Assembly: GCF_034702125.1 (NCBI RefSeq) | Contig: NC_085862.1 | Coordinates: 14,781,396 to 14,845,395, forward strand | Direction of reading: 5' to 3' | Length of the DNA stretch: 64,000 bases | Source: Engraulis encrasicolus | Lineage: Eukaryota > Chordata > Actinopteri > Clupeiformes > Engraulidae | Part shown: piece after piece, positions 5,494-45,773 of the stretch | Numbering within the stretch: position 1 is the first letter of the stretch | Layout of the letters: each line of letters begins with the position of its first letter | Notes under the pieces: generated by a model | Told to the model about the DNA's origin: nothing | The model's input: only the letters and a program-made list of their open reading frames with translations | Database searches by the model: none | Program-made: the position numbers and the translations under genes

Positions 5494-6463
5494 CTACACT
5501 CTCATTTTGTACTCTACCAGTGCATTTGAAGCAGCAGCTGTGTCTTTTATAGATAATGTATAAGTACGTCCCGTTGCAGTTACAGGTTCCACTACCAGAA
5601 GCACATCCTGATGATCCATGACAAGTCTATCTGGTCTGAAGGGAAAAGTGAAGGATGGAGATGGCCCATGAGGATGCAGGAAATTCAGTTTCACCTCTCC
5701 AGTGCTTGGCATACATTCCTCAGCACATGCTAGCCACCAGTTGCCATCATGTACAGCTACAACATACCCTTTGATGCTTGAAAATGTAACACATTCCTTT
5801 ACTGGGCTCACTCTTTCAACTCTGCCTTCTCTGAATGCTGAAAATGGCCTAACTTCCACTGTGTCCATTGACAATGGGCAGAAGCTGTGTAGTTTTTGAG
5901 TACCTGGAATAGTTCTTGCAGATTCAAACCCTTTCAACAGGTTCTCAGCTTCATGATGGTACATCTCTGTTGTGGCAAACTGGCAATGGATGTTCTGAAC
6001 ATTATCCTTGACAATTTCAAACAGTTGGTATGGCGTTACAATTTAATTGTCAATAGGACGTTGCAGACTTGCTCGTGCAGCAAGCCATTTAACTGTCCCT
6101 CCAACGCCATCACATGGACCTTTGCCATGTGATGTGGCAAAAAAGCGCCACTCTGCAGGTATGTGAAAATCTGCCTCGTGGTGGCACAAATTTGTTGTGT
6201 TTTTAAGGTTCTTATATTGTACAGCACAGCCATCAGAAAAAATATAGGATCTTCTTTGGACGTTCTGTCATTGATGAAGTGTCACTGAGGAACTGAATTA
6301 GGAGCTTCTGAAACAGATGTACAGCAATTGTATCATGAATGTTGCAGTCTGAAATAACAACAAAACAGATTTTTTTCCCAGTTTCAACTGATCTTGGTAG
6401 TAGCATACAAATGGATGGATTGTGGCCTGCACTGGTTGTTCCAGTGAAATGATTGAATAGCAT
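5494..6463 (-). pseudogene. Broken protein-coding remnant of the foldback element (copy A)
   Basis: Three minus-strand open segments (6,463-6,233; 6,233-6,036; 5,964-5,494) read as successive parts of one protein separated by stops or frameshifts. Recognisable pieces include a Cys/His-containing segment around LCHH, then SHGKG-CDGVGGTVK, and a C-terminal region with NWWLACAEECMPSTGEV. The same segments recur in copy B (plus strand, 48,165-49,119) and in decayed form in copy C. Similar proteins are, to my recollection, widespread as uncharacterised transposon-like ORFs in animals, but I cannot name the family. No intact ORF remains here. Confidence 0.6.
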
Positions 6464-12467: not shown

Positions 12468-12575
12468 TCAGAGACACTTAAGCACATCGAAACTGCAGGA
12501 CGTTCCTCTTGGGCAGCTGCAGAGCTTCCCAATGCGCGCTCCCTTGCGCAGGGCGCACTGCTCTCCAGCATCGCA
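12468..12575 (-). CDS. cartpt: cartpt exon 3
   Basis: 35 codons plus TGA. It encodes the whole cystine-knot-like CART domain with six cysteines, ending KCL. The acceptor is acgcag|TGC. Confidence 0.93.
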
Positions 12576-13367
12576 CTGCGTAAAACGGACAACACACATG
12601 GAGGTTTTCACTACAAGTGGCAGTAACAACATCAGACAAGAGATATTAAAATGGATTCTTATATCTTATCTTATTCTTATATAATGTCTTATATTCTTAC
12701 ATTTATTTTTATATTCACTATAGCTACACACTTTCTAAAAAATAGTTGCAAGGTGTTAATATGCACATGCCAATTTGCAACTCTCATTTAGACAGACAGG
12801 TCATCATACAATTAAATCAAATCAATCAATTATTGTATTTGTATAGCACACTATCATAAAACCAATGCAAATACATGTTATTAAATGTGGTTAAAGACAA
12901 AACGGGCCAATACAATATCGTACACGGTTGTCATGCATGGTGCGTAAAAGAAAATTCATCCATAAAAAGTTAGAGGTTAAATGAGAAGTGGACATCGTAC
13001 CGACGGGACCCAGCCCAGTTTCTTTTCGGTTGTTGGTATTTCTTTGTTCCTCAGCTTTTCAAGCACTCCTTGGAGGGCCTCGATCTGCTCAGCACAGTCA
13101 GAAATTAATTGTGAAAATGAAAGTGAAAGCCCATACCGGTAGGCTATAGGCTACAACTATGCAGTTGGTGAAAATAACTGACTGTCAAAAATACCCACAG
13201 TAAGAGAAATGGACCATGCTTACCAAAATGCTTACCAAATCTTTTTCTTCTTGAGTTTTGATGATGGAGTCCTCGACTGAGCGAATATCGAGAAAATCCT
13301 CGCAGGTAGCCCAGGAGACCCACGCGCAGCAGGACACGGCGAGCAACAGGACGCGCACGGTGATCAT
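12468..13367 (-). CDS. cartpt: cartpt: cocaine- and amphetamine-regulated transcript prepropeptide (whole gene span)
   Basis: Three phase-0 exons (13,236-13,367; 13,001-13,084; 12,468-12,575) give a 107-residue secreted neuropeptide precursor; human CART is 116 aa. Residues 1 to about 21 are a signal peptide ([17 protein letters not shown]). Residues 45-72 contain the IEALQ-VLEKLR helix region and the dibasic K65-K66. The C-terminal domain (from C73, [19 protein letters not shown]) has the six cysteines of mature CART at 73, 79, 91, 93, 99 and 106. The peptide regulates feeding and stress in vertebrate brain. The Lys-Arg cleavage site usual upstream of the KK site reads K58-E59, so the longer mature form may not be made. 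Fish have several cart paralogues; which one this is cannot be told here, though smn1-map1b synteny fits the human CARTPT locus. Confidence 0.92.
13001..13084 (-). CDS. cartpt: cartpt exon 2
   Basis: 28 codons ([13 protein letters not shown]...KKLGWVPS). The acceptor is gagcag|ATC; an alternative acceptor 3 bp upstream would add one Gln. The donor is TCG|gtacga. Confidence 0.9.
13236..13367 (-). CDS. cartpt: cartpt exon 1
   Basis: 44 codons: signal peptide and start of the propeptide ([22 protein letters not shown]). The donor is TTG|gtaagc. Confidence 0.9.
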
Positions 13368-15361: not shown

Positions 15362-15586
15362 CAGTCCTGTCCTCACAGACACATGATGGACCAGGTTCAG
15401 AGGTCATTCTTCCGTCTTCACGGCAACAGGTCTTTCACTAGACGAGGAGAGAGAGAGCAAGAGCGAGCGTGAGAGAGAGAGAGGGAGGGAGAGAGAGAGA
15501 CCCTTACTCGGAGCCAGACCATCAGAGCAGTGGTCAAACTTGACCAAGTCTGCCGCATGACACTCCGATAACAGAAGCCTTCCGTC

Positions 15587-15649
15587 TTACTTGGCTTTCT
15601 TCTTCTTCTTGGAGTCCAGATCCGAGGCTGCGCCCCCCTGCTGAAGACC
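15587..15649 (-). CDS. smn1: smn1 exon 9 (C-terminal tail)
   Basis: 20 codons plus TAA: GLQQGGAASDLDSKKKKKAK. It takes the place of human exon 7 after ...GYYM. The acceptor is ccccag|GGT. The tail ends in a K5AK cluster rather than the mammalian QNQKE-type sequence. Confidence 0.88.
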   Translation of the reverse strand, partial: GLQQGGAASDLDSKKKKKAK

Positions 15650-18600
15650 CTGGGGATGGACAGGACAGAGACAACATCTCAGTAACATTCAGGGTTCCCA
15701 CACCTTTTTCATGAACAAATTCAAGCACCTTTCAAGCACCTTCAAGCACCAAATTTTCAGTTCTCCAGCACCTTTAACAGGTCGCGGGAAGGGGGTGTGG
15801 GGGTCCTCTTCCAGAAAATGTTGTTTTTAAGATACAATTTCCTGCATTCTCATCAATTTTAGGGTGTCGAATGGCAAATCCCATCTGACATCTCACTACC
15901 TAAGATTTTTGATGTAGCTGAACAATAGATTTCTATTATTTGGCTTACTGAGTTTGACTTGACACAAATTTCAAGCATTTTCAAGCACTTCAACAAAAAT
16001 TCAAGCATTTTCACAACCTTGAAAACACTTAATTGAAATTCAAGGAATTTTCAAGGAATTCAAGCACCAGTGGGAACCCTGAACATTTGGAGGTTGGTGT
16101 GTGCACATCCACAAAACAATTATCCAGGTGCCAGACAAAAGTGGTAGGCAGTGTGATGATGAAGTGGCCCGCACACTGGGCATGAGATCCAAAAATATAA
16201 ACTTTATTGAATTGTACAAGCAGCAACGTTTCGATCCACCAGTGGGATCTTCCTTCAGGTTGGCTCAAGCGGTAGGGCACTGCACTGCTACACCGGCGAC
16301 CCGGGTTCGATTACGGCCCGGGTCCTTTGCCGACCCTTCCCCATCCGTCTCCCTCTCCTCACGCTTGCTTCCTGTCTGCATCAATGTCCCATCTCTCAAA
16401 ATAAAGATCCCAAAAAGCATCAAAAAAAAATTGAGAAAAAAACCCTCACCATGTAGTAGCCGGTGTGGTATCCACACAGGTACCAGGAGAGCAGCATGCT
16501 GGAGAGAGACGCCACCTCGTCGTCACCTGCTCCGTCGCCGCCGCCCGCCATCATCATACCTGCACCTGCCTTACCTGGCGGACAGGTGAAGGAGGGCGGG
16601 GGAGGAGGCGGGAACATGGGGAACTCCTGCGGGGAGAGACAAGAGCAACGTCTCAGTTTTTCATTTTAACAAGCATAGGGAAGAGCGCTTTCAAAAATTC
16701 AGAGAATGCGCGCACATCAGCTGTGCAGGTGCTACACCAAACAGAAGACAACTGAAAGGAAGTGAGGTAATGCTTTACTTTACGGTACAGTAATTACTGT
16801 GTAATTTCTGTGTAACAACAGAGTAACCGCTACGTTACGTGGTATCTAATGGGTAAAAAGGGGGTTATTGCAAAGTAAATACCATGCAATACATATATCT
16901 CAAGAATGACTATGAAACTACTGCATATTTTCTAACCATCTCATCATAGAACTTCTCTCTGTTACCCTGTTGTTACTCAATTAAATGGTGCCCTTTTTAC
17001 CTGTTAGATACCATGTAATTTCTCCCTGTGGTTACCGAGAAAGAAAGTACACCATAATTACATATGGTAACTGTACCGTAACGTAAAGTGTTACTGGAAA
17101 TGATAAAGGTCCACAACACAGTTCTACCAGAGGGTAGATTACAGAAAGAGGACTCAAACTCCCCTCAGCCAATGGAAAGGAGTGTGCTCAACATAGAGGT
17201 AGAAAATAACACTAGAGGTGACCACGCCCCCCTTTTTACGGCAATCTGTAGCGGCCTTTATCTGTAGGTAGATCAGACAAATGGAAATAATGGAGAAGGA
17301 GGCTCAGCTCTGTCAAAAATGGCTTAATCATGTGAAAATGTCCCTCAACACACTATACAAGGACTAGTGTTGAAGTGTGTTGTTAACTATGTTCATAAAA
17401 GATATTATTTGATTTTTAAATGTATTTTATCGACTCATATGATTTAAGTAGATATTTAGCCTGGCACTTCAAATCTGGTCTTTGATTAATGTGTTACTTC
17501 ATATTCACACAGTTTTAGTCAATTTTTTGACAGGGGTGGGCGTGTTCTCCATTGACTTGCATTGCCTGAAGGTACCTACACTACCTACGGAAGTTGGGAA
17601 GCTCAATCTGCCATTTCCCAGTGCTGTCACAAATTGCTGTGTCCTCTCTAGTGTTATTTTCTACCTCTATGGTGCTCAAGTTTGGTCTCCTAAGGGGGCG
17701 TTGTCCACTTCTTCTCGTCTTGTGATGTTTGGTGATAGCTTGCACAAGATGTGCGCTACGCTACAGCCATCTACAGCACTAATGGGACCTCAACTGTAAG
17801 GTCATGTCAACAAAGGTCCCCTAACCAAAGGTCTCCTAAAGGGGCATTCACCTGAAATCACATGGATCCCTGAAAAGTCAGAGCCCGAGTTATGTTCCTC
17901 TCGTCTACCCTCTTTGGTTCTATGCTCCCATTACAGATGTCTTACCGCTGTGCCCATGGGCAGCGTGGCCGGTGGGAAGGGGAAAGGGAAGGGCGGCATG
18001 GATCCAGACTTCGACTTCTTCGGGGACTTCTTAGCCTCCTTCTGGCCCTGCTGCTTACCAACACACACACACGCACGCACGCACACACAGTATTTTTCGA
18101 TATTGAAGCAGGGCAAACACATACAGTACATGCTTACTTCTTAATCCTTGTCATGAGTTATTACTATAACATGTTCTTTGTATCCTTTCCACTCTAATTT
18201 GTACAGTTATGTACTATTCTGACGCAGGTGAGTCAGTAGAGTCAATATAATTATTTTGACTTATTGTGCTTTCATGTGGTCTGGTAATTTAAGGTAAATA
18301 AATACCAAACGCCGACATTCGAAGCACACAACACATCACACATCAACACATCACTTCTGGTATTTTTCACTGGACAACTCGTAGAAAATTTTGATACACA
18401 AGTTTACGAGATGATGACGTACACAACAGCTGGCTCACCATGGCAACCACTAACTTTAAAAACTCAAAAACCGGCATGTTCAGTATGTTAAGACGGTGTC
18501 ATGGTAAATGCATTTTTACCTTTTGACTTTCTAATTCATTTTCCTGCTGTAGCTGATGAACAACGCAGTCTACAATCGTTTTAGTAAAGAAACAGGCCTG

Positions 18601-21600
18601 AGTCTCAATCTGGTCCGCCATCTTTAATTAACAACAAAAAAAGCACATGAACGCAATGTGTTGGTAAATACCTCTTCGCAACTGGATAATATCTACTTCC
18701 GAAGACCACATGAATGCACAATTAGGCACTTATTTCCAAATGTTCCACCACCCAATTCCCTATCACGATAAACATATCAATGCAGGCCAACAATGGGGCA
18801 CAGAGACACAAGATGTGGTCAGGAAATCATCTTATGAGTATATTGCCATAAAAATCGCAGTACCAGTGCCCTACCGAACACATCTTAATGGTAGATGCTG
18901 CACTTTGCCTTCATAAATTATTATTATTGTGAAATGGTTATTATGATAACTACTATTGGGGTTACTGTCAAAAGTCATGTCAATGGTCTTTTTTTCAATA
19001 CAGTTTTTCTTCTTGTAAAAACATAATTTGAAGTTTTTATACTGGCCAGTCAAACATTACACAAGGCACAATAGTGGTATTACTTTCAAAGGCCTTTTTC
19101 TCAGTGTCAATGTTGGTGTAGTCACTGCGTTCTTGATATGTATCGGTCAGTATAATGTACACACCATTTGATGGCATTTGCATCTCGTTTCATTCTTTGA
19201 GCAAGTGCCTTATAGTGCTGTTGTGTGTAAGGACTGACGATCCAAGACCAACCGACTAACAATTAAATGATTGATTGATAGATTGACTCACAGGTGAGTG
19301 CTGGGATTTCAGGGGACTTTTTGAGCTTTTTTCTGGGACTTTCTTCTTCCTCCAGTCCGAGCTGCTGCTTGCCGTTTCCTCTGGTGTCTCTTCTTCCTCC
19401 TGCACATTAAAGGCATTAACTATTATTATTATTTATATCCTTATTTTCGAGATAGGACAATGGAGGAGAGACAGGAATCGAATTTGGAGAGAGAGAAGGA
19501 AGGATCGGCAAAGGACCCGGGGCCGGAATCGAACCCATGCCGCCAGAGTAGACACCCAGTGCCCAGCTGGTAGCGCCATGACTGGTTCTTAAATGCATTA
19601 ATTAAAGACCAGATGACATGTTAGCTTTTTTCTGTCTGGATAACACAAGTGTATGAGCAGTACTGTTACCAAACACTTAAGTAAAATTATTTAGTGACTT
19701 AAACTAGGAGAAAAAAAATTGCACAAACAGATTTCTTGCACACCTTCTTTGGCCAGGTGCATAGGAGGGGAACCCCTGGGGTCACCAGCGTTAGAGACAA
19801 GAAACCTGGTGTTATCTGGTAACCACTTGTACCGTTAAATTGCTTGAAGAAGTTCAGTAGACCGCAGCGTTATTAAACGCTGCAAATGTGGACAGCATGC
19901 AGGAGCTTTGTTGTGTCTGATGATCCTAATGAAATGCCAAAATACCTGGTGATCTGTATCGTATCGTAATTAAATACTAAGTACCTGTTGATCTGTATCG
20001 TCCTCTGTCTGGGACTCCTCGGGAGGAAGTAGAGCAGAGACGTCCATGTCTTCCTCGTTCTCGTAGACGTCGAAGCGAACTCGGCAGCGCTCGCCCTTCA
20101 GCCACACCACCACCCCGGGGTAGACCAGGCCGTCCTCTGACCACACAGCACGGCACGGCGAGTCCAGGGCCCACTGTTCACACAGGGTTGACAAAAATGT
20201 TATTAGTCCAGACGGTGGTGCTCAACCTTCTGATTCTTTGAAAACAGAACTTTCAAGAGGGACATTTTTGTACAGTAGGTAAAGAGGCAGGTGTTTTAGC
20301 ACCACCTCGTCCCAATCTGTGCACACCTATGCATGACATGTGACAATCTTTACAAGATATTAGAGTCTGAATAGCTAGCCAAAAAAAAAAAAGATTAAAA
20401 AAAAAGGCATCAAAAGGCATCCCCCAGAAGCTGACCCATATTGGAGATGGGATTTATGGCTCTCAGTCGTGAATGAGCCACTATAAGGGGTCTTACACAC
20501 CAGGGCGGTAAAGCGTCGCGGAGCGGCCGCGTTTTTTTACCGGCGTCGGTGAAAATACATTGAAACATATCTGTCCTTACACACCAACCGGCGGTAGTCG
20601 AGCGTCAGCGGCGCGGGAGCCGGCTCCCTCTAATACGGATCCTCTCTGTCATAACTGACCCTTATGTCTCGCCACGGCTGTTTGGGTAGCACCGGCAGCA
20701 GGGCACTCAGGTCCACGTCCTCCTCGTTCCCGTAGCCCTCAAACTCCACTCGGTATCGCTCGCCATCCACAGACAGGATGACTGCTGGATACACCAGCCC
20801 GTCCTCAGAGTACGTCGCCCGGCACTGCGATCCCACACTCCACTGAAACACACCACAGACAATACCAAAGACAATCAACACACCAAAGACAATCACGTAA
20901 AGGCCATTACATGCTGAAGAAGGGCTCAGCCCCAAACGTTTATGGGTGAATAAACTAAGACAACATCTGCAGAGTGCTGTCCTCGCTTCCTTCATTCATT
21001 TATTCATTAATTTATGGTTTATGTGGGATTCAGCAGCACCCACTTAGAAACTGTGAGAATCATTAGGCGATAGTGTGAGTGCGTCTCCACCACCATAGGC
21101 AACATTTAATAAGTGTTTTATTGAAAATGCATGTAGCAAAAATGCATACTTGCCGGACTCTGTAACAAAAGACAGAAACGATCATCCCCATTTAGGATTG
21201 CAGTCTTGAGGTGCTCTGGCACAGCACGCAAAGAGTGCATTGCAATATGCGACCTTGCCTCCTCCACTTGCGCTTGCCTCCTCGTCCCGCCTCCTGGCCC
21301 CTCCTCCGTGGAGAAAACGATAAAGTTTCCCAGCTGTCAGCCTAGCCACAACAGCTTTTGAGGGACTGTTTTTCATTCACCATCCCAATTGCAAATGAGA
21401 AAAAGACTCTATAATTGAGCTTTTGATGTGAAGTGAAAGCCCATTGGGAAACTCCAACTCCCATTGTCATTGTGACACAGCACTCCACAGCACACAAGTG
21501 AACACTGCACACTGCACACAACGAAATTGCATTTATGCCTCACCCGTGCAAGGGGGCAGCCCTCAGTGGCGCCCCATGGGGAGCAGTGCGGTGGGACGGT

Positions 21601-23113
21601 ACCATGCTCAGGGTACCTCAGGCATGGAGGAGGATGGGGGAGAGCACTGGTTGATTACTCCCCCCACCAACCTGGCGGGTCGGGAGTTGAACCGGCAACC
21701 TCTGGGATGCAAGTCTGACGAGCATATTTTGCAAGATATTGAAATATAATGCTGTTGTCAGTGATGTCATCATGACATATTACTTCCTGGTACGAGGAGA
21801 GAAGCAAGTGGAGGAGGCAAGTGGAGGAGGCAAGGTCGCATATTGCAACGCACTCAATGACACTGTACCACTGTACCATAAGCGGGCAACCCGGGTTCAA
21901 GTCCGGTCTGGGTCATTGTCCAACCCTCTCTGTTCCACTTGCTTACTGTGATCTCTTTGCTGTTTTTTTTAAAGGTACAACCCCCCTTTAAAGGATTGCA
22001 GTCTTGTACATACTACCTTTGAGGTGGACTTGGTGGCATCTGTGGCTTCCTTCTGTGGTGTAGGCACCCTTGGCGATGAGGCATCACCACTGTCCTCCCC
22101 AGACGTCTGACCCTTTCAGAGACATCAGAATAGTCGTGTGGGTTGCAAACATAGGATGAAAAGCCCAACAAAGAACAAGTAAGGTATGCCTGTTCCAGCC
22201 ACAGTACACACAATAACAACCCTATTTAGAATGTACAAATGACAAACAATGATGTTGATGAGAATGGGTGGTTTCCAGTTGAGGACAGGGCAGCTACCAA
22301 ATGTCCCCTGGAAATATTAGTCGACCCCAAACTATGCACTAAATTAAAAGATAGCTACAAGGGGTCTTCATGACAGACTTGACTGGCACTAGTTAATCAT
22401 AAATTACCCGCAATGACTGGACAGCTTTATCATATGCCTTCACCAGTGCCGAGTCGTCGTCATCAAAGGCAAGTCGTCCTCTCTGTAGAAACGACACCAT
22501 ACCGTTATAACATGGGTATTGCGCCATTGCCTGCTTCTGGGAGTGGGCTCCCTGGGTGGTTTCGAATTGATTGAAACCAACAAGAATTTACTTGTCAGCC
22601 ATCCAACATAACAGTACAGCCCTAATCTCGGATAAACTGACTGATACAACAATAAATGCTGGTGGTTGGGTATAAAGGATGAATGCCATCCATTGTACTC
22701 ATTGAGAGTACATTTGTAGCCTACTGCATGAAACTACGGTACTTGCACGTCGTTAACGTTCGCTATTGGTTTCCCAGTCATCTTGTCATCAATTATTCAG
22801 GTGAGAATAAGGACAATTATCAAGTTACGGGTTAGCCATGCTTAAAATGAACAAACAGCACATAAGGTGTGATAAGTAAACATACATATAGGCTAGTACC
22901 CAACGTATGGCCACAACACGGACACTGTGCGTCATAAACTCACTGCAGTCTTGCAAATCAGAAAGGCTATCACTTTACATGAGAAATGTGCTCCTCAGCT
23001 CACACCTCAACTGACTTCTAGCTGTCAAACATCAACACACACGTGCTTTACAACTTTAAACTTACATTGGCGTCGTCTTTCCGGAAAACAACTGTCTCTG
23101 AGCAGTCTGCCAT
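15587..23113 (-). CDS. smn1: smn1: survival motor neuron protein with two consecutive Tudor exons (whole gene span)
   Basis: Nine coding exons, all phase 0, give 347 aa if all are spliced; using only one Tudor exon gives 284-286 aa (human SMN is 294). SMN nucleates the complex that loads Sm proteins onto snRNAs and acts in Cajal bodies and cytoplasm. Order: N-terminus (1-16); Gemin2-binding helix region FDDDDSALVKAYDKAVQSLR (17-41); basic/Ser linker (42-73); Tudor-1 (74-134); Tudor-2 (135-197); K-rich linker (198-233); Pro-rich region (234-288); YG box LSSMLLSWYLCGYHTGYYM (309-327) for oligomerisation; lysine-rich tail (328-347). The Tudor domains bind symmetric dimethylarginine on Sm tails. 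The gene is divergent from mammalian SMN outside these motifs. The duplicated Tudor exon is the outstanding oddity. Confidence 0.92.
15690..16081. mobile_element. MITE (CAGGGTTCCCAC ends) in smn1 last intron
   Basis: A 392-bp element with ends CAGGGTTCCCAC/GTGGGAACCCTG and direct repeat AACATT on both sides (15,684-15,689; 16,082-16,087). TTCAAGCA-type motifs recur about ten times inside. Confidence 0.75.
16090..16262 (-). repeat. Dispersed repeat with GGATCGAAACGTTGC-type core
   Basis: Member of a family also at 43,790-43,975 and 47,694-47,950. Shared landmarks are an AATAAAGT-type tail region and the core GATCGAAACGTTGC. The 47,694 copy has a 14-bp duplication, suggesting a LINE-mobilised SINE. 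Confidence 0.6.
16262..16430 (+). repeat. tRNA-derived SINE
   Basis: The head has tRNA-like A and B boxes (GGCTCAAGCGGTAGGGCA, then GGGTTCGATTACGGCCC), followed by a non-tRNA body and an A-rich end. A functional tRNA is unlikely because no cloverleaf closes cleanly. Confidence 0.6.
16450..16626 (-). CDS. smn1: smn1 exon 8 (polyproline and YG box)
   Basis: 59 codons: FPPPPPPS, a Gly/Met-rich stretch, then LSSMLLSWYLCGYHTGYYM, the hallmark YG box that drives SMN oligomerisation. The acceptor is ccgcag|GAG and the donor ATG|gtgagg. Confidence 0.95.
16765..17095. mobile_element. Palindromic MITE (CTTTACTTTACGGTACAGT ends)
   Basis: TAATGCTTTACTTTACGGTA at the left is matched by inverse TACCGTAACGTAAAGTGTTA at the right. 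Inner GGTATCTAA motifs are also inverted. It lies in smn1 intron 7. Confidence 0.6.
17186..17682. repeat. Foldback repeat in smn1 intron 7
   Basis: AGAGGTAGAAAATAACACTA (17,195-17,214) recurs inverted at about 17,648-17,670, with further matching flanks (TGCTCAACAT / GGTGCTCAA). No duplication was found. Confidence 0.5.
17946..18050 (-). CDS. smn1: smn1 exon 7 (basic/Pro-rich)
   Basis: 35 codons: KKSPKKSKS basic patch then PPFPFPFPPATLP, equivalent to the first polyproline part of SMN. The donor is GCG|gtaaga. The acceptor (gtaagcag|CAG) is preceded by a (GT/GC)n run rather than a pyrimidine tract. Confidence 0.82.
19292..19399 (-). CDS. smn1: smn1 exon 6
   Basis: 36 codons: acidic lead (EEEETPEETASSSSDW) then a lysine/serine-rich stretch (RKKKVPEKSSKSP). 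The acceptor is gtgcag|GAG and the donor CCT|gtgagt. Confidence 0.82.
19415..19595 (-). repeat. tRNA-derived SINE (reverse orientation)
   Basis: The reverse-complement B box GGTTCGATTCC lies at about 19,525-19,535 and is followed by a poly-purine body and an ATAATA-type tail. It lies immediately upstream of smn1 exon 6. Confidence 0.55.
19985..20173 (-). CDS. smn1: smn1 exon 5: Tudor-2
   Basis: 63 codons starting WALDSPCRAVWSEDGLVYP and containing FDVYENEEDMDVSALLP. It shares 31 of 50 residues with Tudor-1 without gaps. Cage positions are W, Y, F and Y. The conserved Gly after the first W-x-x is Asp, and the YGN turn is YEN. The acceptor is gaacag|TGG and the donor CAG|gtactt, both phase 0. 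Confidence 0.88.
20484..20640. repeat. GC-rich truncated repeat next to smn1 Tudor-1 exon
   Basis: Contains CTTACACACCAG and CTTACACACCAACC repeated around GC-rich CGGCG stretches. It ends within 20 bp of the Tudor-1 donor and occupies the intron between the two Tudor exons. The element is unidentified. Confidence 0.4.
20660..20842 (-). CDS. smn1: smn1 exon 4: Tudor-1
   Basis: 61 codons starting WSVGSQCRATYSEDGLVYP and containing FEGYGNEEDVDLSALLP. It aligns over its length with the single SMN Tudor domain. Cage residues equivalent to human W102, Y109, Y127 and Y130 are Y, Y, F and Y. The acceptor is tttcag|TGG. The best donor is AGG|gtcagt, which keeps phase 0; C at +3 makes it weaker than average. 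Without that donor the frame reads 10 more residues to a stop near 20,630. Confidence 0.85.
21420..21960. repeat. SINE fragments in smn1 intron 3
   Basis: 21,420-21,725 is the reverse complement of the SINE at 60,150-60,720 (shared GTGACACAGCA, GAGCATGG and GTTGAACCGGCAACC segments). A second tRNA-like piece with GGGTTCAAGTCC follows at 21,885-21,960. Confidence 0.6.
22017..22112 (-). CDS. smn1: smn1 exon 3 (linker)
   Basis: 32 codons rich in Ser, Thr and Lys (GQTSGEDSGDASSPR..., ending KSTSK). The acceptor is gaaag|GGT and the donor AAG|gtagta. The position matches the basic linker of human exon 2b, but the sequence is poorly conserved. Confidence 0.75.
22408..22482 (-). CDS. smn1: smn1 exon 2 (Gemin2-binding region)
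   Basis: 25 codons. The acidic run DDDD followed by SALVKAYDKAVQS matches the conserved Gemin2-binding segment of SMN. The donor is CGG|gtaatt. Confidence 0.92.
23066..23113 (-). CDS. smn1: smn1 exon 1
   Basis: 16 codons (MADCSETVVFRKDDAN) with a strong donor AAT|gtaag. It matches the short SMN N-terminus ending in a V-x-FR motif. Confidence 0.88.
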
Positions 23114-23334: not shown

Positions 23335-25583
23335 CCCTTTCATGCACGGTGTCCACATACGTGGACAGTAATTCTAACCCCACTTTAGATAGGTAAATAG
23401 TGGTTATTTTTTTCCAAATTGTATATGGGAAGTACCATGAGGTTCATTACAATACTTTAACAGCAGTTATAACTTTTTGCACTAAATATTAAGTGTTTGA
23501 TGACATCATCAATCTAAGAAATCCACCGATGTGAATTATGACCATAACAAGCATGTTTATATCTGAAAATCAACCACACCAAAGGGCAATTTCAGGTTTT
23601 AAAAAATATTATGATGTTTAGTACAGTTCACTTGAGAAGTCTATGTTGTTAAAATCCAAATTTACAATAAAGGTAGGTTTTTATACAATATAAAGCTACT
23701 GTCCACGTATGTGGACGTTGCGCATCAAGGGAGTCTAATGATAAACATATTATTTATGATTACCGTGAGAATATTCTGCTCATTTTGGGCAAATACTTAA
23801 TGTTATGAGCATTTATAATGATTATAGTGTGAAAATAAATTATTTTTAACATATTTAACACATTTTAACACTTTTAATTTAATAAATTCAAGAAAAACTA
23901 CCTAAAATTAGTGTTTCACGCACGTGTCTATAGGCATATTTCGGGTTTCTTTCACCACAAAATGACACAAATGATGTAGGAATGAGCTAGAATACATGCT
24001 GAATCAAATACAGATCTGTCTTCATCAGAATTGAAGTTTTTTTCCACATGCAACAAGGTTTCCCCACAAATCTTGCCATAGCTGTGTATGTAAATATTGC
24101 TAAATTGACAGTTTTTTTTCTCTTTTTTCATCTTTGTTCGTTAAATACTGTAATATATAATGTGTAAGTGTCATATAATGTTGTAATATTACATATAGTA
24201 ACATGGAAAGTAAGTAAAATAACTTGCATTTATAATAGGAGGTCTATTTAACACTATTTTTTCACAGAAAATACTTGAACATGCTGATGAATGACTACAA
24301 AACGCATGTGTCTGGAGGCAAATTTCATATTACCTTTCATATAGGGACAACATAAATGATGTAGGAATGAGCTAGAATCCATGCTGAATCAAATACAGAT
24401 GTGTCTTCATCAGAATTTAAGGTTTTTTCCACATACAACAAGGTTTCCCCACAAATCTTGCCATAGCTGTGTATGTAAATATTGCTAAATTGACAGTTTT
24501 TTTTCTCTTTGTTTCATCTTTGTTCCTTAAATAGTGTAATGTATAATGCATAAGTGTCATATAATGTTGTAATATGACACAAGGTAACATGGAAAGTAAG
24601 TAAATTAACTTACATTTATAATAGGGGGTCTATTGACACTATTTTTTACAGAAAATACTTGAAAATGCTGATGAATGACTACAGAACGCATGTGTCTGGA
24701 GGCAAATTTCATATTACCTTTCATATAGGGACAACATAAATGATGTAGGATTGAGCTAGAATCCATGCTGAATCAAATACAGATGTGTCTTCATCAGAAT
24801 TTAAGGTTTTTTCCACATGCAACAAGGTTTCCCCACAAATCTTGCCATAGCTGTGTATGTAAATATTGCTAAATTGACAGGTTTTTTTCCTCTTTGTTTC
24901 ATCTTTGTTCCTTAAATAGTGTAATGTATAATGCATAAGTGTCATATAATGTTGTAATATGACACAAGGTAACATGGAAAGTAAGTAAATTAACTTACAT
25001 TTATAATAGGGGGTCTATTTAACACTATTTTTTTTACAGAAAATACTTGAAAATGCTGATGAATGACTACAGAACGCATGTGTCTGGAGGCAAATTTCAC
25101 ATTACCTTTTATACAGGGACAACATAAATGATGTAAGATTGAGCTAGAGTACATGCTGAATCAAACTGAGCTTTTTGTTCACCAGCATCGGCTGTCTTCT
25201 TGCATGCAATAAGAATTTCCCACATATTTTTCTATGACCGCCTATATAAACAATGCTATTTTTATATATATGTTTTGTTGTTGGTTAATTACAGTGATAT
25301 ATGGTGTTAAAGTGTTATATTGTGTTGTTATATAGCATAAAACACCATAAAAATGAATAAAAACAGCTTAATTTGAACTTGAAATACAGTATAGGCCTAT
25401 ATAACTTTTCACTCCTTTGATGCGCAGTGTCCACATATGTGGACAGTAAAATAGCCTAACTTCCACATCAAAAGAGATTTTTGAAAAATTCCAAAAGATT
25501 CTTCATATTAGCTCCATTATGAGTGAGAAAATCAATATATAAAAAATCTTGCACATTTTTTTCATGGTGTCTGCATGAAAGGG
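23335..25583. mobile_element. piggyBac-like non-autonomous element with TTAA duplication
   Basis: Flanked by TTAA (23,331-23,334; 25,584-25,587), with ends CCCTTTCATGCA and TGCATGAAAGGG. TTAA targets and CCCTTT-type termini are hallmarks of piggyBac. Subterminal palindromes GTCCACATACGTGGAC (23,351-23,366), GTCCACGTATGTGGAC (23,701-23,716) and GTCCACATATGTGGAC (25,429-25,444) repeat the terminal design. The centre holds a roughly 385-bp tandem repeat. There is no ORF. Confidence 0.8.
23910..25160. repeat. Tandem repeat, ~385-bp unit, about 3.3 copies
   Basis: Successive units start at the TGTCTGGAGGCAAATTTC-type segment near 23,924 (diverged), 24,310, 24,694 and 25,080. Each is followed by GATGTAGGAATGAGCTAGAA. 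Units two and three are nearly identical; the outer ones are diverged. Confidence 0.85.
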
Positions 25584-28409: not shown

Positions 28410-30069
<1,660 letters not shown>

Positions 30070-30544: not shown

Positions 30545-32159
30545 TGCCCTCCATAATTATTGGCACCCCTGGTTGAGATGTGTTAAAAGCCTTAAAATAA
30601 ATTCAGTGTTTATTGCAGAAGAATACTGTCACACTGAAAATTTTAGGAAAATGTAGCCTTCAACTCAAATGAATTGTAGGAAAATAAAAAAAATCCCTGA
30701 CTAAAAAATAATTATTTTTCATTAAATCACCTGTTCCACAATTATTGGCACCCTTAACAATTCCCAGGAAATAAATATAATTGAAGCATATCTGTCATTT
30801 CTACAGTAGTTTACAAAGTTTACCAGAGTATGTAGGAACATTTAATTAGTAATTCATCACTTCCTGTTTCCCTGGGGTATAAATATGACGTGACACCGAG
30901 GCCATTTCTCTTATCCACTCTTAAACATGGGAAAGACAAAGGAACACAGCATACAAGTGAGGCAGATGTGCGTCGACCTTCACAGGTCAGGCAGAGGCTA
31001 CAAGAAGATTGCCACTCAACTGCAGCTGCCCATATCTACTGTGAGAGGAATAATTAAGAAGTTCAAAACAACTGGAACAGTGGTAAACAAGCCTGGACGA
31101 GGACCCAAGTTTATTTTGCCACCACGCACAGTGAGGAGGATGGCAAGAGAAATCAAAATATCTCCAAAGCTCACTGTTACAGAATTACAACAAATGGTAG
31201 CATCCTGGGGTCACAAAGTCTCCAAATCAACCATCAGGCGCTGTCTACACGCCAACAAGCTGTTTGGGAGGCATGCACGGAGAAAACCTTTCCTCACCCA
31301 CAATCATAAACGCAAACGTCTGGAGTTCGCCCAGCGGTATTGGGGCTTCAACTGGGACCGTGTGCTTTGGTCAGATGAGACCAAGATTGAGTTTTTTGGC
31401 AACAAACACTCTAAGTGGGTCTGGCGTGCCACGAAAGATGCGCATGCTGAAAAGCACCTCATACCCACTGTGAAGTATGGGGGTGGGTCAGTGATGCTGT
31501 GGGGCTGTTTCGCTTCCAAAGGCCCTGGGAACCTTGTTAGGGTGCATGGCATCATGAATGCTTTGAAATACCAGGACATTTTAAATCAAAATCTGTTGCC
31601 CTCTGCCAAAAAGCTGAAGATGGGTCGTCACTGGGTCTTTCAGCAAGACAATGACCCTAAACATATGGCCAAATCTACACAGAAATGGTTAACCAGACAC
31701 AAAATCAAGCTCCTCCCATGGCCATCTCAGTCCCCAGACCTCAACCCCATTGAGAACCTGTGGGGTGAGCTGAAGAGGAGAGTACAGAGGAGAGGACCCA
31801 GGTCTCTGGATGATTTAGAGATATTCTGCAAAGAGGAATGGCTGAAGATCCCTCTTTCTGTCTTTTCCCATCTTGTGAAACATTATAGGAGAAGATTAGG
31901 TGCTGTTTTGTTGGCAAAAGGGGGTTGTACAAAATATTAACAACAGGGGTGCTAATAATTGTGACACACATTATTTGATGTCAAATAATTATTTCTTTAT
32001 GTGGGGTTTTTTCCCCACTGAATAAATGCACTTGTATTGAAGGTTGGATTTTTCTCTTTTTTTCCATTAAGGTCCCATATTATTTAGAGAAAAATAATAA
32101 TAATTGGAAGCTAAAAAACACATCTCAACCAGGGGTGCCAATAATTATGGAGGGCACTG
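30542..32159 (+). mobile_element. Tc1/mariner transposon copy 2, complete
   Basis: A 1,618-bp element with the same ends and TA flanks as copy 1. It differs by a 3-bp indel near 30,795 (TCTATCTATC versus TCATTTC) and a few substitutions. It lies in the same orientation as copy 1. Confidence 0.95.
30927..31940 (+). CDS. Tc1-like transposase, intact (copy 2)
   Basis: A 337-aa transposase identical to copy 1 except for one substitution (GPGNLVRV). All DD34E residues and the HTH region are intact. Two intact, almost identical ORFs side by side point to a recent duplication and a young family. Confidence 0.97.
   Translation: MGKTKEHSIQVRQMCVDLHRSGRGYKKIATQLQLPISTVRGIIKKFKTTGTVVNKPGRGPKFILPPRTVRRMAREIKISPKLTVTELQQMVASWGHKVSKSTIRRCLHANKLFGRHARRKPFLTHNHKRKRLEFAQRYWGFNWDRVLWSDETKIEFFGNKHSKWVWRATKDAHAEKHLIPTVKYGGGSVMLWGCFASKGPGNLVRVHGIMNALKYQDILNQNLLPSAKKLKMGRHWVFQQDNDPKHMAKSTQKWLTRHKIKLLPWPSQSPDLNPIENLWGELKRRVQRRGPRSLDDLEIFCKEEWLKIPLSVFSHLVKHYRRRLGAVLLAKGGCTKY

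Positions 32160-35110: not shown

Positions 35111-45773
<10,663 letters not shown>

Follow-up and report, generated by a model that had tools for sequence, protein, structure and literature searches.

A multi-Tudor paralogue of smn1 in the anchovy Engraulis encrasicolus, with two Tudor exons likely joined in one mRNA

Spinal muscular atrophy results from loss of the essential survival of motor neuron protein SMN; to our knowledge, work on vertebrates assumes one single-Tudor SMN gene, human SMN2 aside. SMNDC1 (SPF30) contains a single Tudor and lacks a YG box, and the tandem-Tudor proteins 53BP1, UHRF1 and KDM4A, each of which packs or interlaces its Tudors differently, bind methyl-lysine. Here, we describe an SMN-like gene on the minus strand of a 64,000-nucleotide stretch of the Engraulis encrasicolus genome (NC_085862.1, positions 14,781,396 to 14,845,395; hereafter the window), which an initial annotation had named smn1 and credited with two consecutive Tudor exons. 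Our analysis indicates that this gene is a paralogue of smn1, and that both Tudor exons are likely to be included in one mRNA, giving a predicted dual dimethylarginine reader of about 357 residues.

Like canonical SMN1, the window gene encodes, in the same order, a Gemin2-binding segment, an SMN-type Tudor, a Pro-rich stretch and a YG box, and its exon order and phase-0 exons match those of human SMN1. Unlike canonical SMN1, it lies in a separate locus and clade, encodes two Tudors instead of one, lacks the Lys-rich 2b stretch and has a 2-residue deletion in both Tudors; its YG box reads LSSMLLSWYLCGYHTGYYM, compared with LGSMLISWYMSGYHTGYYL in Chanos smn1. It shares the SMN-type Tudor with SPF30, whose solved Tudor follows that of SMN in the ranking by sequence match; unlike SPF30, it carries both SMN end domains (Pfam). 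As in 53BP1, UHRF1 and KDM4A, two consecutive Tudor folds are present in the modelled protein; however, the tandem aligns with 53BP1 only at a root-mean-square deviation (rmsd) of ~10 Å, whereas each single domain fits the SMN Tudor closely. Relatives of the gene already stand in NCBI and UniRef as "survival motor neuron protein-like" entries, a name that looks machine-given, and one of them, P0003, is the window gene itself. In the titles and abstract openings of the open-access literature we found no description of a tandem-Tudor SMN paralogue, so that an old multi-Tudor SMN paralogue has apparently gone undescribed. SMN1-2-DC1 is listed as single Tudor in a 2025 survey of Tudor genes (PMC12147562), and the mention of "tandem tudor" found in PMC9684302 is a reference on FXR proteins.

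A search of the anchovy genome with the SMN_Tudor profile gave two matches, one at C3:49209079 (89.7 bits) and one in exon 3A of the window gene (40.1 bits), with exon 3B absent from the listing of this genome-wide search. The first match belongs to a canonical smn1 on another chromosome, C3, at ~49.2 Mb, with WDDTALIKAYDKAVASFK, a Lys-rich 2b exon, a single Tudor and a YG box, and the 180 kb surrounding it hold one Tudor match. In a tree built without the Tudors from rows hand-picked from the match lists, SMN-like proteins split from canonical SMN with a support of 99/98 (29 and 21 rows); the anchovy canonical row was short (42% filled) and oddly placed. A second tree, likewise of hand-picked rows and rooted on three invertebrates, omitted that row, Denticeps and about twenty more rows used in the first tree and added frogs, turtles, crocodilians, gecko and coelacanth; support was 89/98 for the SMN-like side (22 rows) and 74/87 for the canonical side (20 rows). 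The clade of the window gene comprises ray-finned fishes, coelacanth, lungfish, amphibians, turtles, crocodilians and a gecko. All 120 listed matches to zebrafish smn1 (best 120 of 659) carry one Tudor, and at least 16 fish species are named both there and among the two-Tudor proteins listed for the window gene (best 120 of 184); the caecilian Microcaecilia also has both gene types (P0052 and P0309). By its domains the window protein is a member of the SMN family in the broad sense, with a Gemin2-binding segment, an SMN-type Tudor and a YG box above the Pfam cut-offs, but it does not group with canonical SMN and has two Tudors, not one. The name smn1, which had been drawn from exon anatomy, was dropped on the evidence of the C3 locus and the trees.

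Nine exons, all of phase 0, assemble into a complete SMN-like gene; these and two further coding exons are:

23066..23113, minus strand: exon 1, encoding MADCSETVVFRKDDAN; the NCBI model P0003 begins 15 nucleotides further upstream (MLTSR...)
22408..22482, minus strand: exon 2a, Gemin2-binding-like segment DDDDSALVKAYDKAVQSLR; Pfam SMN_G2-BD (PF20636), 29.2 bits, cut-off 22.2
22017..22112, minus strand: exon 2b, linker, by reading; without the Lys-rich stretch of canonical SMN
20660..20842, minus strand: exon 3A, Tudor 1 (Pfam, structure match)
19985..20173, minus strand: exon 3B, Tudor 2 (Pfam, structure match)
19292..19399, minus strand: exon 4
18520..18621, minus strand: optional 102-nucleotide exon (MADQIETQ...), included in isoform X2 (P0003), missing from the clupeiform relatives P0004-P0008
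17946..18050, minus strand: exon 5, Lys-rich then Pro-rich
16450..16626, minus strand: exon 6, Pro-rich and YG box LSSMLLSWYLCGYHTGYYM; Pfam SMN_YG-box (PF20635), 37.1 bits, cut-off 21.3
15587..15649, minus strand: exon 7, either closing in frame on a stop codon or spliced from a donor after 15591 to the terminal exon
15404..15437, minus strand: terminal coding exon (NERPVAVKTEE, stop), used by P0003; similar tail in P0005-P0008, not in Coilia P0004

The two Tudor exons are open frames of 183 (3A) and 189 (3B) nucleotides, both multiples of three with GT-AG ends, and each encodes an SMN-type Tudor by itself (Pfam SMN_Tudor: 40.1 and 26.8 bits, cut-off 22.7); in the exon-assembled 357-residue protein, PF06003 matches two stretches with 62.7 bits against the same cut-off of 22.7, and in a sequence search the human SMN Tudor is the top solved-structure match for both. 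Exon reading and Pfam bore out what the initial annotation had claimed of this pair, namely its coordinates, phase 0 at both ends, a spacing of 486 bp and 31 of 50 residues identical without a gap. Nucleotides match at 39, 38 and 24 of the 50 first, second and third codon positions, respectively, with 0.30 nonsynonymous (dN) and 1.05 synonymous (dS) substitutions per site (dN/dS 0.29), a pattern that points to an old duplication retained by purifying selection and not to chance. By blastn, the 200 bp on either side of one exon show no similarity to those of the other, which likewise argues that the exon duplication is old.

P0003 (survival of motor neuron protein-like isoform X2, Engraulis encrasicolus), a predicted NCBI model of the window contig, is a mosaic of the window exons over 371 of its 371 residues and has both Tudors in one protein. 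The same layout is usual among the relatives, for which we took the best 120 of 184 matches, predicted models of which several are isoforms of one gene: two Tudors were found in 94, three in one and one in 25, and with a stricter cut of 60 bits at least two remained in 91 of the 120, P0101, P0107 and P0119 dropping to one. Since two or three Tudors are thus the rule (95 of the 120 listed), tandem inclusion is likely the main product, as the initial annotation had offered in one of its two readings. Nine of the 25 single-Tudor proteins are canonical or lie outside the fish SMN-like group, one is a sturgeon model in which Tudor 1 and Tudor 2 are indistinguishable, and fifteen are fish SMN-like models, some of them short and ten of them salmonid; all fifteen best match Tudor 2, so that Tudor 1 looks like a dispensable cassette. 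In O. keta and O. masou the models with Tudor 2 only and the tandem models lie on different contigs, and many of the fifteen therefore probably come from a second locus. P0085, a 329-residue frame on a 1,246-base contig that most likely derives from spliced RNA, has both Tudors.

The layout extends beyond fishes. A third search (best 120 of 545) added 92 proteins, with two Tudors in 16 and three in one, from the coelacanth; 14 of the 16 are from tetrapods or the coelacanth, and the others are a silverside and a eukprot protein with a weak second match. Three Tudors occur in the caecilian P0052 and the coelacanth P0244, and two further coelacanth models have only the first of the three (P0277) or lack the first (P0256). 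Among the matches listed (best 120 of 184, of 659 and of 545), no tandem-Tudor SMN-like protein was found in mammals, birds or Ostariophysi. The tandem is not a novelty of the anchovy but an old and widespread arrangement. When 60 Tudors were taken singly into a tree (53 columns; stars on 14 of its 56 inner branches), Tudor 1 and Tudor 2 came out intermingled: the sturgeon Tudors cluster regardless of position (99/98), and frog Tudors 1 and 2 go with caecilian Tudors 2 and 3 (100/98 and 98/91). A single origin of the pair was set aside on this mixing, which suggests repeated duplication or homogenisation as likely; by the counts above, Tudor number is labile. A separate observation concerns P0107, an MMETSP transcript of 330 residues with SMN-like ends and two Tudor matches of 67.8 and 51.0 bits.

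Taking into consideration the features of the exon pair, other explanations have to be weighed. The initial annotation had also proposed mutually exclusive exons giving two single-Tudor isoforms with different cages; both exons being of phase 0 and a multiple of three, either choice would be frame-safe, and single-Tudor relatives do exist (the fifteen fish Tudor 2 models and coelacanth P0277 and P0256). However, with both exons frame-preserving and separated by an ordinary 486-bp intron with GT-AG ends, neither a frame-shift nor anything else in the structure enforces exclusion; P0003 contains both, 95 of the 120 listed relatives have two or three Tudors, and a fish SMN-like model with Tudor 1 only was looked for among these 120 matches and found in none, including 0 of the 15 single-Tudor ones. 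Exclusion is thus unsupported by the predicted models, and we consider it highly unlikely. We also regard it as unlikely that exon 3A, as a cassette, is left out of the main anchovy product, which would then have Tudor 2 alone, as at a second salmonid locus that apparently lost Tudor 1. Such skipping would agree with the retention of Tudor 2 in all fifteen listed fish SMN-like single-Tudor models, ten of them salmonid, with the occurrence of Tudor-2-only besides tandem models on differing contigs in O. keta and O. masou, with the two-Tudor P0063 and the Tudor-2-only P0118 of Symphorus on one contig, and with the better conservation of Tudor 2 in four of four clupeiform comparisons; yet tandem models are more numerous, P0003 carries both Tudors, and the donor of exon 3A outscores the 2b and 3B donors, two of the seven others scored (by consensus frequencies).

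It is scarcely credible that the window gene is smn1 with a recent or decaying duplicate exon. The neuropeptide gene CART adjoins it, which recalls the human arrangement, SMN1 and CARTPT both lying in 5q13.2; but the canonical smn1 sits on C3, which already refutes this explanation, the SMN-like clade is separate, and the dS of 1.05, the dN/dS of 0.29 and the dissimilar 200-bp flanks do not fit a young or decaying copy.

Each of the two Tudors carries an aromatic cage, the roles of positions 102, 109, 127, 130 and 132 (human numbering) being those of the SMN Tudor: Tudor 1 has Y102, Y109, F127 and Y130 plus N132, and Tudor 2 has W102, Y109, F127 and Y130 plus N132, so that four aromatic residues and Asn132 are kept in both. 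The Tudor 1 cage is nearly invariant across 90 two-Tudor proteins. The Tyr/Trp difference at 102, to which the initial annotation drew attention, is real; however, it is an anchovy peculiarity, Tyr102 being found in the first Tudor of one of the 90, the anchovy alone, and in the second Tudor of 59, as is usual in fish. The Gly/Asp (position 95) and Gly/Glu (131) loop differences were correctly called, and a Gly/Val difference at 129 adds to them. In an AlphaFold2 model of P0003, for which 50 of the 120 listed relatives served as input, both Tudor folds have high confidence, the linker is fairly confident, and each Tudor alone closely matches the human SMN Tudor. From the kept cages, the Tudor folds, the YG box and the exon 2a segment, we infer that the protein likely reads dimethylarginine bivalently and could enter SMN oligomers. 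In such a scheme, each Tudor would bind, via its cage, the methylated RG tail of SmD1/SmD3 or of some other SMN client, the exon 2a segment, when included, would bind Gemin2, and the YG box would admit the protein into SMN oligomers; the tandem protein would raise the valency of methylarginine reading, and skipping of the frame-preserving exon 3A would lower it to one Tudor.

Several observations weigh against a bivalent product acting in this way. Tudor 2 has Tyr or Phe instead of Trp102 in 67 of the 90 proteins and Asn instead of Gly131 in 58, so its ligand may differ. The YG-box helix (317-349) is modelled with middling confidence and the whole-model predicted template-modelling score is 0.35; the top tandem-Tudor matches in Foldseek align over both domains at an rmsd of ~10 Å or more, so that the model fits none of the known tandem packings, and a packed arrangement like that of 53BP1 was dropped. 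Isoform X2 skips exon 2a and hence the Gemin2 segment, and in neither Lates P0030 nor P0085 did Pfam detect this segment; Gemin2 binding is therefore not general to the family, part of which may have left the Gemin2 pathway. Fifteen listed fish models have Tudor 2 only, and the isoform evidence consists of predicted models, X2 being the only anchovy isoform read.

A conserved two- or three-Tudor SMN, which many fishes have in addition to smn1 and which occurs in amphibians and reptiles too, offers a natural test of Tudor valency in SMN oligomers and condensates, and allows one to ask whether SMN can be backed up by a paralogue; the interest of the gene lies more in its spread across vertebrates than in its being a curiosity of the anchovy. 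If zebrafish indeed lacks the SMN-like gene, as the match lists suggest, this would explain why the zebrafish model never revealed it. In our judgement, the odds are even that bony vertebrates had a second, multi-Tudor SMN gene next to smn1 before the split of ray-finned and lobe-finned fishes, that its product reads methylarginine polyvalently with the number of Tudors set by duplication of exons and skipping of cassettes, and that mammals, birds and the zebrafish group lost this gene, which would be why it went unseen in the usual models of spinal muscular atrophy.

The ends of the product vary between models. Exon 2a, skipped in X2, has matching residues in Coilia, Clupea, Sardina and Alosa. 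P0003 exits exon 7 at a donor 4 nucleotides before the end of the stop codon and finishes in 15404-15437, a tail similar to those of Clupea, Sardina and two Alosa proteins (P0005-P0008), and exon 2a together with this tail gives the 357-residue protein. Of the 347-residue tandem product proposed initially, the tandem is supported; its stop in exon 7 gives an end like that of Coilia P0004, whereas P0003 has another C-terminus. The optional exon at 18520-18621 encodes MADQIETQACFFTKTIVDCVVHQLQQENELESQK, has no Pfam match and may be an exonised piece of a mobile element.

About 2 kb downstream of the SMN-like gene, on the same strand, lies the CART gene (12468-13367; Pfam CART, 121.5 bits), with these exons:

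13236-13367, minus strand: CART exon
13001-13084, minus strand: CART exon
12468-12575, minus strand: CART exon

On C3, no CART match, such as a block duplication of SMN with CART might have left, was found within ~90 kb on either side of canonical smn1. SMN-like models that run in frame from the YG-box exon into CART occur in Acipenser sinensis (P0040), Xiphias (P0044 and P0055) and two salmon (P0031 and P0106); linkage of the two genes is therefore conserved. In the window, the two partners of this junction, exon 6 and CART exon 2, have phase 0 there, and read-through transcripts may exist.

Elsewhere in the window, two nearly identical 337-residue frames (28837-29850 and 30927-31940, plus strand) are Tc1-type transposases (Pfam HTH_Tnp_Tc3_2, 72.5 bits, HTH_SB and DDE_3), and a 156-residue open frame (5494-5964, minus strand) has no Pfam match at E 0.01. 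A Sir2-family stretch lies in frame 43136-43612 (minus strand; Pfam SIR2, 26.1 bits, cut-off 24), which by eye is sirt5 and a synteny marker. Upstream of the SMN-like gene, positions 23965-25165 hold a tandem array of 3.1 copies of a 385-bp unit with 95% matches.
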